From Pseudoduganella violacea (lineage in GTDB: Bacteria; Pseudomonadota; Gammaproteobacteria; Burkholderiales; Burkholderiaceae_D), in contig NZ_JACHXD010000007.1 in NCBI RefSeq assembly GCF_014191875.1, forward strand, positions 62,001 through 126,000: 64,000 nt of DNA, read 5' to 3'. Shown piece by piece: positions 4,685 to 14,262 of the stretch. The position numbers were made by a program, and so were the translations under genes. A model generated the notes under the pieces. That model ran no database searches. It saw nothing but the letters and a program-made list of their open reading frames with translations, and had not been told where the DNA came from. Each line of letters begins with the position of its first letter. The stretch's first letter is position 1.

Positions 4685-5173
4685 ATGAACGACCAGAATC
4701 CCGACCAGCTCACCCACTTCGACGCATCCGGCCAAGCACATATGGTGGACGTTGGCGCCAAACAGGAAACCCACCGCATCGCCGTGGCGACCGGCAGTAT
4801 CCGCATGAAAGCGGAAACCCTTGCCATTATTCTAGCGGGAACGGCCAAAAAGGGGGATGTGCTGGGCATCGCCCGCATCGCCGCCATCATGGGCGCGAAA
4901 AAGACCAGCGACCTGGTGCCGCTGTGCCACCCGCTGGCCCTGACCCGCGTCACGGTCGATTTCGAAACCGATGCAGCCGCTTCCAGCGTGCACTGCCGCG
5001 CCCAGGTCGAAACCTATGGCAAGACCGGGGTCGAGATGGAAGCGCTGACGGCCGTGCAGGTCGGCCTGCTCACGGTCTACGATATGTGCAAGGCGGTGGA
5101 CAAGGGCATGGTCATGGGCGAGATCCGCGTGCGCGAAAAACACGGGGGCAAGTCGGGCGATTGGTCGGCTTGA
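4685..5173 (+). CDS. moaC: Cyclic pyranopterin monophosphate synthase MoaC
   Basis: A 162-residue protein matching MoaC over its whole length: HMVDVGAK near the N-terminus, [30 protein letters not shown] in the middle (the hexamer active-site region) and [10 protein letters not shown]...[11 protein letters not shown] near the end. MoaC converts the GTP-derived cyclic dihydropterin into cyclic pyranopterin monophosphate in molybdenum cofactor synthesis. That cofactor is needed by the assimilatory nitrate reductase encoded later in this window. No other moa gene is adjacent. An SOS promoter begins directly after the stop codon. Confidence 0.95.
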
Positions 5174-5215
5174 TTGCCAAATCCTTAGCGGCTGTTATAC
5201 TGTATATACAAACAG
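5174..5215 (+). promoter_or_regulatory. Sigma-70 promoter overlapped by a consensus LexA (SOS) box
   Basis: A TTGCCA -35 (5174-5179), a 16-base spacer and a TATACT -10 (5196-5201) directly follow moaC. The 16-bp element CTGTATATACAAACAG at 5200-5215 fits CTGT-N8-ACAG, the LexA operator of beta- and gammaproteobacteria, and covers the -10 and start site. The recA promoter in this window has the same layout with the same -35 hexamer. It faces the ImmA-type protease gene; the start codon lies 83 bases beyond the box. Confidence 0.85.
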
Positions 5216-5298
5216 TGCAAATTTATTACTACGGCTTTAGCTTGTCTTTAGTATGATTTGCAATATTGGATTTTGGCTCGCACGACGGAGATTTTGAG

Positions 5299-5802
5299 AT
5301 GGCGGTAACCATGGTTCGCCCTCGCACCGGCAGCGAGGCGGCAAAAGAAATCCTGGAACAGTATTGGGACGGGCGTCTGCCCATCCGCCCTGAACAAATT
5401 GCCGAACGCATGCAGATGGCGATGGTGGGCAGAGGTGGCGCCGGCGATGAAGGCTACAATTTCAGCGGATATTTTTCGATGCGCAACGGCAAGCCGACCA
5501 TTGAATACAATGTCAATGATTCGCTGGTCAGACGGCGCTTCACGGTCGCCCATGAACTAGGCCATTATGTATTGGGCCATCAAGACGCCCCACGCGATTA
5601 TCCGGACAGCTTTGGCTCGAAAAATAGTAGCCCTATCGAACAACAGGCCAATAAATTTGCCGCCGAATTACTGATGCCTGCGTATGTGGTTAAGGCGATG
5701 GCGCTGGCAGGTTCGAATTCCTTAGACGAGCTCGCCAATATCTTCGTGGTTTCCAAGGTCGCCATGGGGCACCGCCTGAGTAATCTGAGTCTGAGCCTAT
5801 GA
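5299..5802 (+). CDS. ImmA/IrrE family metallo-endopeptidase, SOS-controlled
   Basis: A 167-residue protein of the ImmA/IrrE (COG2856) zinc peptidase family. It has HELGHYVLGH at residues 85-94 (zinc-binding HExxH) and a downstream EQQANKFAAELLMP stretch with the glutamate ligand region. Family members cut repressors, as ImmA does ImmR in ICEBs1 and IrrE/PprI does DdrO. There is no helix-turn-helix partner gene here, and the upstream control element is a LexA box, so induction by DNA damage is expected. The ATG at 5299 has GGAG eight bases upstream. The stop overlaps the next start (ATGA). Lower GC than the flanks suggests acquisition. The protease call is firm; its target is unknown. Confidence 0.85.
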   Translation: MAVTMVRPRTGSEAAKEILEQYWDGRLPIRPEQIAERMQMAMVGRGGAGDEGYNFSGYFSMRNGKPTIEYNVNDSLVRRRFTVAHELGHYVLGHQDAPRDYPDSFGSKNSSPIEQQANKFAAELLMPAYVVKAMALAGSNSLDELANIFVVSKVAMGHRLSNLSLSL

Positions 5803-6479
5803 ACCATCCGCCGCCGGATCCGTGGTCGACTAATAGCGATCCCGCAACCGGTGGCGCATCTGATTTCGCTGGCAGCGCAGACGCATCTGGGCGACGTCTG
5901 CATCCCACGGAAGATCTCGCCGGCGGTGATCATCTGGATCGACAAACCGCAAGCGGCGTTGATTTCTTCCATAAGCAAATTAAGAACATTTACTGGCTGC
6001 GCAATGCTGCCACCTTTGCTCTCGTCGTAACGCTGATTAGCCTGATTATTGCCTTGGGATGCACTCTCCATTCATTTACAAAGCAGATCGATAAAGCCAC
6101 GCCCGCCGTTAATCTGAAAGAGCTGGTCGCCACGCCCCCGGCTGGCCAGGCAAGCACCAGTACTACAGATAAGCCAGCTGCCGACAACGCGACAAGCAAA
6201 GCCAGCAATCCGACGCAACTGCATGCCGCCATCAGCGTCGATATTTCCTCAATCGGCAATTCGGTGGTCGCGGTGGTGAGCGTATTGGTCATTGCGATTG
6301 CCATACTTGCCATTTCCCTGCTGCGCGCGGCTTACTCCTTATCGGTGGAAGGGATCAGTAAAGGCCAAATCAGCAAGGAAGCCGACAATTCCCTACCCTG
6401 GCCTGGGGTGGAAATGGTCAAGGCCGTGGGCGATGCGCTGGCAACCGCCCTGAAAGGAATGCCGGGTAAAAAAGGATAG
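5799..6479 (+). CDS. Unknown two-helix membrane protein translationally coupled to ImmA-type protease
   Basis: A 226-residue protein with no family I recognise. Residues 1-55 are polar and Pro/Gly/Asp-rich. A first membrane helix lies at about 69-92, a Ser/Thr/Ala/Pro-rich linker at about 105-140, and a second helix at about 153-177. An amphipathic, Gly/Lys-ending tail follows. The linker and both helices suggest an inner-membrane hairpin with soluble ends. It overlaps the protease gene by four bases, so the two are made together from the LexA-controlled promoter. Possible roles are a membrane-acting toxin or effector, or a substrate or regulator of the protease; the sequence does not decide. 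Confidence 0.75.
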   Translation: MNHPPPDPWSTNSDPATGGASDFAGSADASGRRLHPTEDLAGGDHLDRQTASGVDFFHKQIKNIYWLRNAATFALVVTLISLIIALGCTLHSFTKQIDKATPAVNLKELVATPPAGQASTSTTDKPAADNATSKASNPTQLHAAISVDISSIGNSVVAVVSVLVIAIAILAISLLRAAYSLSVEGISKGQISKEADNSLPWPGVEMVKAVGDALATALKGMPGKKG

Positions 6480-6575: not shown

Positions 6576-7286
6576 GTGAGCGATGGGGCAGCGGCGGGCG
6601 AGGCGAAAACGCAGGGATATGAGTTCGAGCAGATGAATCTGCAGGTGGGCGGACGTATCCAGTTCATCACCCACCGCAGCATCAAGCCGGTCCAGCATTT
6701 TTCCACCATCATCGGCTGGCTCAAGGATGAATACCTGATCGTCAAAGTGCCGTTCGAAAACGGCGGTCCGATCGCCCTGCATGAAAACGACAAGCTCACC
6801 ATCCGCGTGTTTTCCGGCGTGAATGTGTGCGCCTTCCCCTGCACCGTCGAGCGCGTCTTTGGCCGCCCGCTGTTCTATGCCCACCTTTCCTTCCCGCGCA
6901 ATATCCAGGGCACCAGCTTGCGCGCGGCGATGCGGGTCAAGGTCGATATTCCGGCCCAGGTGGGTTGCGACGACGGCAGCTCGCTGTCGGTCTTCCTCGT
7001 CAATCTGAGCGTCTCGGGCGCGCTGATCGAGTCGAAACGCAAGCTGCACCAGGACGAGGGCGTGGTCGACCTGACGTTTACGCTGCTCAGCCAACCGGGC
7101 CAGCGCCAGGTGCGCATCGGCGCCAGGGCGCTGATCCGCAATATGACGGTGTTGAAGCCGGTCAGCGCGGCGGAGGAAGTGTTCAGCTATGGCGTGCAAT
7201 TCGTCGATCTCGATCCGGTGCATTACACCATGCTGCAAAACCTGACCTACGAGGCGCTGATCGCCGACCGCCAAAAAATCGTTTGA
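6576..7286 (+). CDS. PilZ domain protein, YcgR-like flagellar brake type
   Basis: A 236-residue protein with an N-terminal YcgR-like domain (about residues 20-110) followed by a PilZ domain. The c-di-GMP contacts are visible: RAAMR (RxxxR) near residue 117 and VNLSVSGAL (NxSxxG) near 143. PilZ proteins of this architecture bind cyclic di-GMP and slow flagellar rotation or modulate surface behaviour. The start is GTG at 6576 with a modest AAGG upstream. It stands alone under its own promoter and ends at a strong terminator shared with the convergent pilin gene. Confidence 0.87.
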   Translation: MSDGAAAGEAKTQGYEFEQMNLQVGGRIQFITHRSIKPVQHFSTIIGWLKDEYLIVKVPFENGGPIALHENDKLTIRVFSGVNVCAFPCTVERVFGRPLFYAHLSFPRNIQGTSLRAAMRVKVDIPAQVGCDDGSSLSVFLVNLSVSGALIESKRKLHQDEGVVDLTFTLLSQPGQRQVRIGARALIRNMTVLKPVSAAEEVFSYGVQFVDLDPVHYTMLQNLTYEALIADRQKIV

Positions 7287-7294
7287 ACGAAAAA

Positions 7295-7318
7295 AACCGG
7301 GCCGCAGCCCGGTTTTCT
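7295..7318. terminator. Bidirectional intrinsic terminator
   Basis: AACCGGGC, a four-base loop and GCCCGGTT form a perfect 8-bp stem flanked by an A run on the left and TTCT on the right. It lies between the convergent PilZ and pilin genes and can end both transcripts. Confidence 0.85.
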
Positions 7319-7336
7319 CTATCCAGCTAAGCCAGA

Positions 7337-7807
7337 TCAGATATTGTTTTTCTCAACCGCGGCTTTGACTGCCTTGTTGGTGGACGTCGTTTCGGTCTTC
7401 CAGGTCATGGTGCTGTTGTTGGCCGTCAGCGTCGGGGTGAAGGTGATGGTTTTGCCGTCGACGTCGGTGGCGATGCCGGTGGCCAGGGTCAGGGTGATCA
7501 CGCCATCGGCCACGGCGGCGGAAGCAACTTCCTTGGTGGCTTTGAAGTCGGAATCCTTCGGCACGCCATTGCTGTCGCTATCGCACTTGGTCAGGTCGCC
7601 GCCATTTTCCTGGGCGCACAGGGCAACCGCCGTTTTCAGCGAGTCGGCGGCGGAAATCGCATTGGCGGTCTTGGCTTTGGCGGTGTAGTCGCTGTACGCA
7701 GGAATGGCCACCGCAGCCAGAATACCGATGATGGCAACGACGATCATCAGTTCGATCAGGGTGAAGCCGGCTTGAGCTTGTTGCTTCATCATTTTCATGG
7801 ATTTCAT
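7337..7807 (-). CDS. pilA: Type IV pilin PilA
   Basis: A 156-residue prepilin: a short basic leader ending AQAG, then the class III methylation motif [18 protein letters not shown], with Glu at mature position 5 and the hydrophobic assembly helix. Two cysteines (ALCAQENGG...TKCDSD) lie in the globular part. PilD cleaves after the glycine and the mature subunit polymerises into the type IV pilus for twitching, adhesion and DNA uptake. The ATG at 7807 is preceded by GAGGAG at seven bases. A sigma-54 promoter lies upstream and a terminator follows. No other pil gene is adjacent. Confidence 0.93.
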
Positions 7808-7859
7808 TTTGCTGCTCCTCAGGTAAAAAACTAGAAATTGGGTGAGACACAGGACATAG

Positions 7860-7876
7860 TGCAATCGCCGTGCCAG
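7860..7876 (-). promoter_or_regulatory. Sigma-54 promoter of pilA
   Basis: On the reverse strand CTGGCACGGCGATTGCA matches the -24/-12 consensus YTGGCACGRNNNTTGCW at every defined position, about 50 bases before the pilA start codon. pilA genes in several proteobacteria are sigma-54 dependent and activated by PilR. Confidence 0.88.
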
Positions 7877-7926
7877 CCCGTTTTTGCCGTCGGAGTGACG
7901 AAATCCGGCCCTCCAGGCGCAGGAAT

Positions 7927-8004
7927 TGTCAGTTTCAGTATGCTAGCTTGCCGTTTTTTGTCAGCCCGGCCCGCCAAAAAGCGTCAGCTGACGATTTTTG
8001 TCAG
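7927..8004 (-). promoter_or_regulatory. Repeated TGTCAG elements upstream of the pilA promoter, candidate PilR sites
   Basis: TGTCAG occurs at 7927-7932, 7959-7964 and 7999-8004, and GTCAGCTGAC at 7983-7992, in the gap between pilA and the FHA gene. They lie 50 to 130 bases beyond the -24 box, where enhancer-binding proteins act. PilR of Pseudomonas recognises repeated TGTC elements; assigning these to PilR is inference. Confidence 0.4.
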
Positions 8005-8618
8005 GGCAGGCGGAAGGCCATCAGGGTGCCGCCGAGGTCGATGACGTCGTCGGGCAGCAGGCGCTGGGCGGCGCGGCCGAGCGGGGTGCCGTTGAGCAGG
8101 GGGGCGGCCAGACCTTCGACGTGGGAAATGGTGTAGCCGCCCGCCGCGCGGGCGATGACCACCACCTGCACGCCGGGCCGGCCGAGCGAGGTCAGGGTTT
8201 TGAGCAGGGTGAGCTGTTTGCCCATATTGCTGCCGTTTAAGACTTCGATGCGGGCGGGCGGGCCTTCGGCCGGGGGCGACACGGTGGCCGCGGGTCGGCT
8301 GGCGGCCTGGGCGGCGGCCAGCGGCCGGATGCCGTCGGCCAGGAATTCGATCTGGTACTTGGCCAGCTTGATCAGGTCTTTGTGCTGCAGGAAATGCTTG
8401 CCGATGCGGTGGCCGTTGACGAAGGTGCCATTGGTGCTGTGCAAGTCTTCCAGGAAGGAATCGTCGAGGATGGTGGTGATCAGGGCGTGCTGGCCGCTGA
8501 CGGCCGGGTGGTTGAGCACAATATCGTTGTGGCGATGGCGGCCCACGCTCATGCTCTCCTTGCTGAGCTGGATCTGCTGTTCCACCACGCCGTCCCGCGA
8601 CACGATAATCTTCGCCAA
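8001..8618 (-). CDS. FHA domain protein
   Basis: A 205-residue protein. Residues 1-95 are a canonical forkhead-associated domain with phosphothreonine-binding motifs VGRHRHNDIVL, VSGQHALI and LHSTNGTFVNG. After a Pro/Ala linker, residues 120-205 read like a second, degenerate FHA fold (LGRPGVQVVV, LLNGTPLG, LPDDVIDLGG) without the usual Ser/His pair. FHA proteins bind phosphothreonine partners; the kinase and partner are unknown. The start codon is TTG at 8618 with GGAGG five bases upstream. An intrinsic terminator separates it from sucD, so it probably has its own promoter. Confidence 0.85.
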   Translation of the reverse strand: MAKIIVSRDGVVEQQIQLSKESMSVGRHRHNDIVLNHPAVSGQHALITTILDDSFLEDLHSTNGTFVNGHRIGKHFLQHKDLIKLAKYQIEFLADGIRPLAAAQAASRPAATVSPPAEGPPARIEVLNGSNMGKQLTLLKTLTSLGRPGVQVVVIARAAGGYTISHVEGLAAPLLNGTPLGRAAQRLLPDDVIDLGGTLMAFRLP

Positions 8619-8630
8619 ATCCGCCTCCGG

Positions 8631-8660
8631 AAAATAAAAACGGGGAGCCGAAGCTCCCCG
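8631..8660 (-). terminator. Intrinsic terminator after sucCD
   Basis: On the reverse strand CGGGGAGC, loop and GCTCCCCG form an 8-bp perfect stem followed by TTTTTATTTT. It lies between the sucD stop and the start of the FHA gene. Confidence 0.88.
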
Positions 8661-8686
8661 CTATTATTACTGCAAAGCAGGCAATA

Positions 8687-9568
8687 TTACAGCATTGCTT
8701 TCAGCAGACGCGCCATTTCGGACGGGTTTTTGGTCACGGTGATGCCGCAGGCTTCCATGATTTCCAGTTTGGCTTGCGCGGTGTCGGCGCCGCCGGAGAT
8801 CAGCGCGCCGGCGTGGCCCATGCGCTTGCCCGGAGGAGCGGTGACGCCGGCGATGAAGCCGACCACTGGTTTCTTCATATTGTCCTTGATCCAACGGGCC
8901 GCATTGGCTTCGTCAGGACCGCCGATTTCGCCGATCATGATGACCGCGTCGGTGTCCGGATCGTCGTTGAAGGCTTTCATCACGTCGATGTGCTTCAGAC
9001 CGTTGATCGGGTCGCCGCCGATGCCCACGGCCGAGGATTGGCCCAGGCCCAGCGCGGTCAGCTGCGCCACGGCTTCATAGGTCAGGGTGCCCGAACGGGA
9101 CACCACGCCGATGCGGCCTTTACGGTGGATGTGGCCTGGCATGATGCCGATCTTGATTTCGTCAGGGGTGATCAGGCCTGGGCAGTTCGGGCCCAGCAGC
9201 AGGGTTTTGGAACCGGCTTTGGCCATGCGGTCTTTGACTTCCATCATGTCGCGCACTGGAATGCCTTCGGTGATGCAAATCGCCAGGTCCAGCTCGGCTT
9301 CCACGGCTTCCCAGATCGCGGCGGCCGCGCCTGCTGGTGGGACGTAGATCACGGAAACGGTCGCGCCGGTTTCCGATTTGGCTTCTTTGACGGAAGCGTA
9401 GATAGGAATGCCTTCGAAGTCTTCGCCAGCTTTCTTCGGGTTCACGCCAGCGACGAAGGCGTTTTTGCCGTTCGCGTATTCGCGGCACATACGGGTGTGG
9501 AACTGGCCGGTTTTGCCGGTGATACCCTGGGTGATGACTTTGGTGTCTTTATTGATCAGAATAGACAT
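8687..9568 (-). CDS. sucD: Succinyl-CoA synthetase alpha subunit
   Basis: A 293-residue protein matching SucD throughout: ITGKTGQFHT near the N-terminus (CoA-binding Rossmann fold), GPNCPGLITP, and the phosphohistidine loop GHAGALISGG near residue 246. With SucC it converts succinyl-CoA, ADP (or GDP) and phosphate into succinate, CoA and nucleoside triphosphate in the citric acid cycle. Length equals the family norm. It starts 13 bases after sucC on the same message and ends at an intrinsic terminator. Confidence 0.97.
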   Translation of the reverse strand: MSILINKDTKVITQGITGKTGQFHTRMCREYANGKNAFVAGVNPKKAGEDFEGIPIYASVKEAKSETGATVSVIYVPPAGAAAAIWEAVEAELDLAICITEGIPVRDMMEVKDRMAKAGSKTLLLGPNCPGLITPDEIKIGIMPGHIHRKGRIGVVSRSGTLTYEAVAQLTALGLGQSSAVGIGGDPINGLKHIDVMKAFNDDPDTDAVIMIGEIGGPDEANAARWIKDNMKKPVVGFIAGVTAPPGKRMGHAGALISGGADTAQAKLEIMEACGITVTKNPSEMARLLKAML

Positions 9569-14233: not shown

Positions 14234-14262
14234 ACTGTATAAAAAAACAGTGCTTTTGGCAA
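14234..14262 (-). promoter_or_regulatory. recA promoter with LexA box
   Basis: On the reverse strand TTGCCA (14257-14262), a 17-base spacer and TACAGT (14234-14239) form the promoter. The LexA operator CTGTTTTTTTATACAG (14235-14250, CTGT-N8-ACAG) overlaps the -10. Its form defines the LexA site used by this organism and supports the equivalent element before the ImmA-type gene. Confidence 0.9.

Follow-up and report, generated by a model that had tools for sequence, protein, structure and literature searches.

The window analysed here is a 64,000-nucleotide stretch of Pseudoduganella violacea, and in its chromosomal DNA a small operon of 1.3 kb fills the interval between moaC (4685–5173) and a PilZ gene (6576–7286), both flanking genes being assigned by Pfam. 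The operon consists of two genes, one for a short M78 (ImmA/IrrE) zinc protease and one for a membrane protein with two transmembrane (TM) segments, which are joined by an ATGA overlap at 5799–5802 (Table 1). Such an overlapping pair, with no repressor gene alongside, was the core of the original prediction, and this is what the analysis found: the first product matches the M78 family with E 8e-22 (77.7 bits against a cut-off of 22) and keeps its motif intact, the second belongs to no known family, and no repressor gene lies between moaC and the PilZ gene. The GC content is likewise lower than that of the flanks, as had been stated, at 0.54 and 0.56 for protease and partner versus 0.63 and 0.61 for the flanking genes, and the third-position values (GC3) are 0.61 and 0.59 versus 0.80 and 0.82. 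A second M78 domain of this genome lies at C2:129988-130323 (L007), within a 398-aa open frame.

Table 1. Features of the operon, in window coordinates
Feature	Position	Strand	Remarks
Sigma-70-type promoter TTGCCA-16-TATACT, TG before -10	5174..5201	+	10/12 matches
LexA box CTGTATATACAAACAG	5200..5215	.	Perfect CTGTN8ACAG; overlaps end of -10
Ribosome-binding site GGAG, protease gene	5287..5290	+	From sequence
Short M78 (ImmA/IrrE) zinc protease gene	5299..5802	+	167 aa; Pfam PF06114
Two-TM membrane protein gene	5799..6479	+	226 aa; no family above cut-off
First TM segment of partner, residues 70-88	6006..6062	+	Kyte-Doolittle; helix 45-100 in low-confidence model
Second TM segment of partner, residues 156-174	6264..6320	+	Kyte-Doolittle; among most conserved stretches; low-confidence model
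C-terminal helix of partner, residues 204-219	6408..6455	+	Alignment A1; low-confidence model

Operator, protease and partner

The operon had been predicted to carry a consensus LexA box covering a good sigma-70 promoter. The box is perfect and of the same type as those at recA and lexA, and it does overlap the -10 element of a promoter with 10 of 12 matches; however, it covers the final two bases of the -10 only, not the entire promoter, and promoter-like sites are not above chance by count (2 in the window versus a mean of 1.2 in shuffles). The number of boxes is not significant by itself either, since the 64-kb window holds 2 perfect CTGTN8ACAG sites, shuffled windows hold 0.49 on average and 10 of 100 of them reach 2. 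The window's other perfect box (14235-14250) precedes the recA open reading frame (Pfam RecA, E 7e-142) by 42 bp. Across the genome (6.25 Mb) there are 32 such sites versus 15 for the reversed control pattern, and two of them (C4:347242 and C4:347259) directly precede lexA, whose LexA_DNA_bind match starts at C4:347285. What places box and promoter beyond chance is conservation: the string TGnTATACTGT-N8-ACAG is kept in all three chromosomal loci that carry the pair, the window, L008 (box CTGTATGAATAAACAG) and L009 (box CTGTACCCATATACAG), although the N8 differs. The distance from box to start codon is 98–112 bp across these loci. With a LexA operator at its promoter, as in members of the SOS regulon, the window operon would be induced by DNA damage through LexA. 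Just past the window there are two more perfect A/T-rich LexA-type boxes (C7:126284-126299 and C7:135244-135259).

In the protease, H85, E86, H89 and E114, that is HELGH and a glutamate further on, are the same in all 27 aligned relatives; we take Glu114 to be the downstream glutamate that goes with the HEXXH metal site in M78 peptidases. The AlphaFold2 model is good (pLDDT 87.5) and has the IrrE/CapP fold of M78 peptidases; in Foldseek, CapP is nearest (E 1.1e-5), followed by IrrE (5e-5) and ssDNA-bound PprI (3e-4). The best PADLOC match is also capP, with E 1e-26. At the C-terminus there are two helices (142-149 and 153-162) that are helix-turn-helix (HTH)-like in appearance. CapP and PprI are reported to be activated by ssDNA, for which a partly buried HTH leaves space in PprI, and to cut the regulators CapH and DdrO, respectively (PMC13373217, PMC10904395). 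Because these relatives respond to ssDNA and the window protease ends in HTH-like helices, ssDNA is, by analogy, its probable trigger too, which would add a second check besides LexA. At E 1e-3 the protease has 315 homologues, itself included, of which the best 120 were listed.

The partner has two TM segments by a Kyte-Doolittle hydropathy scan, and a variable linker connects the second of them to a C-terminal helix that reads PGxELVKAxGEALATxLKG in the family (alignment A1). Nothing above cut-off was obtained for it in Pfam or NCBIfam, and nothing at all in PADLOC; PHROGs gave a single weak match (E 0.002). A holin match was found for it in neither Pfam nor PHROGs, and two relatives reach one only at E 0.08–0.09. 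No related solved structures were found, and the AlphaFold2 model is poor (pLDDT 52), so that pore formation is without structural support. There are 11 homologues of the partner, itself included.

A horizontally mobile cassette and its phage relatives

A profile scan of genome contigs with the partner alignment returned two relatives, one in Massilia sp. BJB1822 (L008), at this locus the nearest relative with a name, where the pair occupies the same site between moaC and PilZ, and one in Pseudoduganella namucuonensis (L009), where it lies at another site between tRNA-Leu copies. The ATGA overlap is present in all three chromosomal loci, and in none of them does a further gene stand between the pair and the flanking genes. 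In L009, four tRNA-Leu(CAG) copies flank the module at 6892-8947, two on each side. An additional partner homologue occurs in Massilia sp. YIM B04103 (P0003), while L133 is identical to part of L008 and was not counted as a further genome. The partner was present in 1 of 195 sampled genomes of the family, namely its own, and an order-level search with A1 in 399 genomes gave, besides the own genome, only the weak L011 (E 6e-4). We took L011 as a chance match, as its gene neighbourhood is unrelated and its genome is without any M78 match.

The site itself was surveyed through the PilZ gene, which had a match in 35 of 40 congeneric genomes and returned 30 loci. Two of these carry the module, the own genome and one with a stretch identical to L008; moaC and pilZ are both in reach and the module is absent in 23, and the other five have no moaC inside the stretch examined. 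Given this absence from 23 congeneric loci and the low GC3, the pair is an acquired, horizontally mobile cassette and not a remnant. Among 11 moaC-pilZ gaps read for open reading frames, four hold PIN-domain (VapC-like) genes by Pfam, so the gap seems to serve as a place where small cargo of the toxin-antitoxin type integrates. These four are L143, L147, L156 and L160, and L142 has a shorter open reading frame of similar look.

Relatives of the protease at E 1e-5 come from 36 phage and 72 plasmid records. They include the P2-like phages Carl1 of Burkholderia (49% identity to the window protease), MET_P1_103_31 of Salmonella and ACA1 of Pseudoalteromonas, a genome labelled P2, and Gordonia phages; among the plasmid matches listed, a number are annotated as XRE regulators. 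Eight of these 108 phage and plasmid records were examined, and the next gene encodes a two-TM protein in seven of seven (L042-L048), the eighth (L049) ending at the protease. The E. coli chromosomal counterpart of L049 is L164, whose partner has one segment above the hydropathy threshold and a second one recognised on inspection and from its alignment with relatives that have two.

The pairing was also counted in viral contigs at loci selected on protease sequence alone. The window protease alone gave no match there, nor did the partner's own sequence or A1; the scan with the protease alignment A2 gave 291 loci, of which the best 80 were kept. A readable protease open reading frame was present in 79 of the 80, which reduced to 41 representatives at 80% identity, 38 of them with at least 500 bp downstream. 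A two-TM open reading frame, called by a Kyte-Doolittle window and not by a trained predictor, lies directly downstream in 36 of these 38, versus 5 of 275 other open reading frames in the same loci. The exceptions are L074, whose partner has one segment above threshold and whose cluster mates have two, and L085, where the open reading frame begins further upstream than the range allowed.

Bacterial genomes, 369 of which were searched at class level with matches at E 1e-12 in 48, agree with this. Leaving the own genome aside, the five top-ranking proteases (L166-L170, E 8e-34 or better) all have a two-TM partner, whereas at the weaker loci (L171-L194, 24 in number, 7 unreadable) a two-TM open reading frame comes next in 0 of 17 readable cases. 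Conversely, a P2-type partner used as query found three phage records, two of them copies of one genome, and three plasmid records, and all six are in the protease list; the Carl1 partner matched Carl1 alone. Since close proteases are paired, weaker ones are not, and a partner query leads back to protease records, the two-TM pairing is a property of this protease clade and not of M78 enzymes at large. Two other arrangements were seen beside it. In L018 (700-1869), a 185-aa open reading frame with two hydrophobic stretches lies directly upstream of a 203-aa M78 gene, possibly an order-swapped version of the module; in L171 and L176, what seems to be another M78 pairing joins a short M78 gene to a following protein of about 370 aa that has no TM segments and, in both loci, a similar motif (RINIHL) at its C-terminus.

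In two E. coli P2 prophages the pair sits between gene A (replication endonuclease) and the portal gene Q; the window copy is chromosomal and lies outside such an interval. The A-Q interval is described as a cos-adjacent anti-phage hotspot, which holds old and tin in P2 (PMC9122126). The word 'ImmA' is absent from the main text of that paper, and the pair may be in its tables, which cover 169 systems. Gordonia phage Polly has the pair in the interval from tail genes to integrase, and a small gene annotated as helix-turn-helix follows three genes past the protease. In ACA1, the annotation calls the protease an antirepressor, and a LexA-like gene, gp4, comes three genes further along; no repressor gene is annotated beside the pair in Carl1 or in the two E. 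coli P2 prophages. No description of the M78/two-TM pair, and no experimental result on any member, was found among the titles, abstracts and passages of open-licence papers examined. Prophage Tritos of E. coli LF82, in which an ImmA/IrrE gene and its neighbour are reported to be expressed in lysogens (PMC9928086), was considered as expression evidence and rejected: matched by position and annotation only, the RefSeq stretch has no short ImmA/IrrE protease annotated, and the pair in question is likely a helix-turn-helix protein and its neighbour.

Partner diversity and the distribution of LexA boxes

Judged by eye, most partners begin with a polar stretch, carry a basic residue behind the second of their two TM segments and finish with a short C-terminal helix. 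Of 95 partner sequences, 83 fall into one group at E 1e-4, and there are 23 clusters at 1e-8; an earlier single-linkage clustering with composition correction off had given one cluster of 85 and was replaced. In profile comparisons, the window cluster (17 members) is linked at 95% probability to each of the clusters of L076 and L051, at 91% to the Carl1 cluster over 14 columns only, and at 12–62% to five further clusters. Many partner groups thus show no detectable homology to the window partner, and a common ancestry of all partners is not shown, since 14 of 22 comparisons fell below 5% (one of them, L085, used the wrong open reading frame) and similar TM segments can link unrelated proteins.

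A second partner type, with a GGTL-EVFG...LF-like ending, is found in L164 (an E. coli lambdoid prophage), Gordonia phage Polly and L170; the coordinates of this type are 4084-5187 in L164 and 2980-3845 in L048. The L164 partner matches those of L170 (E 3e-24) and Polly (E 2e-6), and this lambdoid type is common, with 80% or more of the L164 query present in 429 of 5426 complete E. coli genomes. The P2-type partner is rarer, with 49 matching genomes, three of them over 80% of the query. P2-type partners belong to phrog_8096 and lambdoid ones to phrog_5346, both listed as of unknown function, and the window partner matches neither. Similarities of protease and partner correlate over 45 representatives, L048, L164 and L085 being left out (Mantel r 0.56, a value that none of 2000 permutations reached; Spearman 0.32). 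Such correlated divergence fits a protease-partner interaction, and it is also expected from co-inheritance as an operon.

We found LexA boxes in part of the phage relatives. The 400 bp upstream of the 41 viral representatives hold six perfect boxes in 16,639 bp versus two in 218,671 bp elsewhere, a 39-fold enrichment (Poisson P 1.5e-8), and the reversed control pattern occurs in neither. Carl1 has an additional perfect box at -165, and none was found upstream in the E. coli P2 and lambdoid loci examined. Upstream of 87 proteases there are five one-mismatch boxes, and among other LexA operators the alpha types gave 0, the actinobacterial type 0 and the Gram-positive type 1. The check proposed at the outset, whether the pair recurs with a LexA box, came out positive for the three chromosomal loci and Carl1, but only six of the 41 viral representatives have a perfect box within 400 bp. 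As 35 of 41 are without one, the module does not come with SOS control throughout; on this sequence pattern, such control is a recurrent option of the module and not a defining trait.

Comparison with known systems and proposed function

The nearest known enzyme, CapP, which acts with CapH in CBASS and other immune operons, resembles the window protease in PADLOC match, fold and DNA-damage logic. However, CapP works with an HTH repressor, CapH, next to an immune operon, whereas the window unit has a LexA box, a two-TM partner and no adjacent HTH repressor, its neighbours being moaC, the two-TM gene and PilZ. PprI/IrrE of Deinococcus, for which ssDNA activation is reported, shares the M78 fold with HTH-like helices, but its solved chains are of about 290–300 aa and it works with the radiation-response regulator DdrO; the window protease has 167 aa, no DdrO, and belongs to mobile cargo. 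The MpaR/ImmA antirepressors of prophages and integrative conjugative elements are M78 mobile-element cargo like the window pair, and the activity of MpaR is reported to be raised by DNA damage. They are described as acting on a repressor encoded alongside, while the constant neighbour in the window clade is a membrane protein, and an adjacent XRE-type repressor, as in ImmR-ImmA, is present in none of the window, L008 and L009.

Two further groups resemble the pair in layout. Toxin-antitoxin surveys describe COG2856 (M78) proteases of about 160 aa in mobile, phage-abundant two-gene units (PMC2701414), and an ImmA/IrrE peptidase is reported within the validated defence system PD-lambda-2 (PMC9519451); the partners described there are Xre, PIN or RelE/HigB-type proteins, whereas the window partner is a membrane protein. 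Prophage exclusion pairs such as lambda RexAB and CarolAnn gp43/gp44 are, like this pair, two-gene prophage cargo with one predicted membrane protein, but the CarolAnn proteins are described as one with four TM segments (gp43) and one that matches DUF4747 weakly and is not a protease (gp44). In function, the closest idea comes from the bacterial gasdermins, in which a protease releases a membrane-damaging partner. The likeness is an analogy only, as gasdermins assemble into large protein pores and depend on different proteases.

Our best reading, plausible though falling just short of probable, is that the pair forms a defence or exclusion module gated by DNA damage, its CapP-like protease sensing ssDNA and controlling a membrane effector. 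LexA would repress the operon, and DNA damage, including that of phage attack, would inactivate LexA so that both proteins are made. The compact protease of CapP/PprI type, with its HTH-like C-terminal helices, may then need ssDNA as a second trigger. The two-TM protein would be its dedicated target or regulator; that it could act as both substrate or restraint and effector is suggested by the lack of an adjacent repressor together with the near-constant membrane-protein neighbour. It might be cut in the variable linker, ahead of its conserved C-terminal helix, or be released from the protease, and once freed it would act on the membrane to arrest or kill the damaged or infected cell, presumably to the benefit of the resident prophage or kin. 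Such a role would suit both SOS control and carriage by temperate phages. The system would be of a temperate-phage cargo type, present in the window as a stand-alone chromosomal cassette. A defence or programmed-dormancy module had been among the original suggestions, and it gains indirect support from the temperate-phage cargo, the old/tin hotspot and the PIN genes in the same gap. The more specific idea of an undescribed prophage-borne immunity, in which a compact ssDNA-sensing M78 protease has a dedicated two-TM effector substrate in place of a repressor and LexA serves as a second lock in some lineages, is possible but rather doubtful.

Two alternatives, both of them unlikely in our view, deserve more weight than the rest. 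In the first, the pair is an antirepressor switch, the protease made after DNA damage cleaving a CI-like repressor encoded elsewhere, as MpaR does in Listeria, with the membrane protein tethering or restraining it and the chromosomal copy being a relic or acting on other prophages. The LexA-controlled gene tum of coliphage 186 is an antirepressor gene and counts for this explanation, as does the family itself, since M78/DUF955 proteases include MpaR, reported as a proven antirepressor. The annotation of the ACA1 protease, with its LexA-like gp4, and the helix-turn-helix gene of Polly make a repressor target conceivable in phages. However, no repressor gene stands between the pair and its flanking genes in the window, L008 or L009, and none is annotated beside it in Carl1 or the two E. 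coli P2 prophages; what constantly adjoins the protease is a two-TM protein, for which an antirepressor has no need.

In the second, to which we give a similarly small chance, the pair follows toxin-antitoxin logic, either the two-TM protein or the protease being toxic and the other restraining it until DNA damage or infection. This would suit the overlapping genes and the PIN-domain genes in the moaC-pilZ gap of four congeneric loci. Moreover, the COG2856 proteases of about 160 aa are described as putative toxins with Xre partners, linked to PIN and RelE toxins (PMC2701414), and the Xre-peptidase component of PD-lambda-2 is reported to be toxic alone (PMC9519451). Together with the weak homology among partners, these reports slightly lower the odds of the defence or exclusion module and of the prophage-borne immunity, and raise those of toxin-antitoxin logic. 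On the other hand, SOS would induce both genes together, the window locus has no Xre partner, and relatives of the protease are reported to be activated by ssDNA.

Stress signalling without killing, in which the protease has a chromosomally encoded regulator or a protein of the envelope as its target and the partner is its membrane anchor, is improbable: PprI and CapP are indeed reported to cut the regulators DdrO and CapH, but the patchy, mobile distribution, with the partner in a single one of the family genomes sampled, argues against a house-keeping regulon. The earlier suggestion of a degraded mobile-element remnant without function, which the low GC and a foreign cassette with no other mobile genes alongside might have favoured, is very improbable and finds no support, because both genes are intact, the active-site motif, the ATGA overlap and the operator are kept in three loci, and pair and operator are conserved together at two chromosomal sites.

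The characterised M78 proteases PprI, CapP, ImmA and MpaR are described as acting by cutting a transcriptional repressor. A large clade with a nearly constant membrane-protein neighbour suggests another output for this kind of DNA-damage sensor, straight to the membrane. While the protease family is known, its combination with a two-TM partner looks like an undescribed cargo system, perhaps a defence one, and there is a fair chance that the pair is a distinct class of DNA-damage-gated membrane effector. The unit is small and portable; as the pair occurs in E. coli P2 prophages at a hotspot of validated defence and the second partner type in about 430 of 5426 genomes, it can be tested in standard E. 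coli strains. If the prophage-borne immunity is real, DNA damage would be converted directly into membrane attack, and the one protease would have acquired two types of partner that look unrelated, phrog_8096-like and phrog_5346-like.
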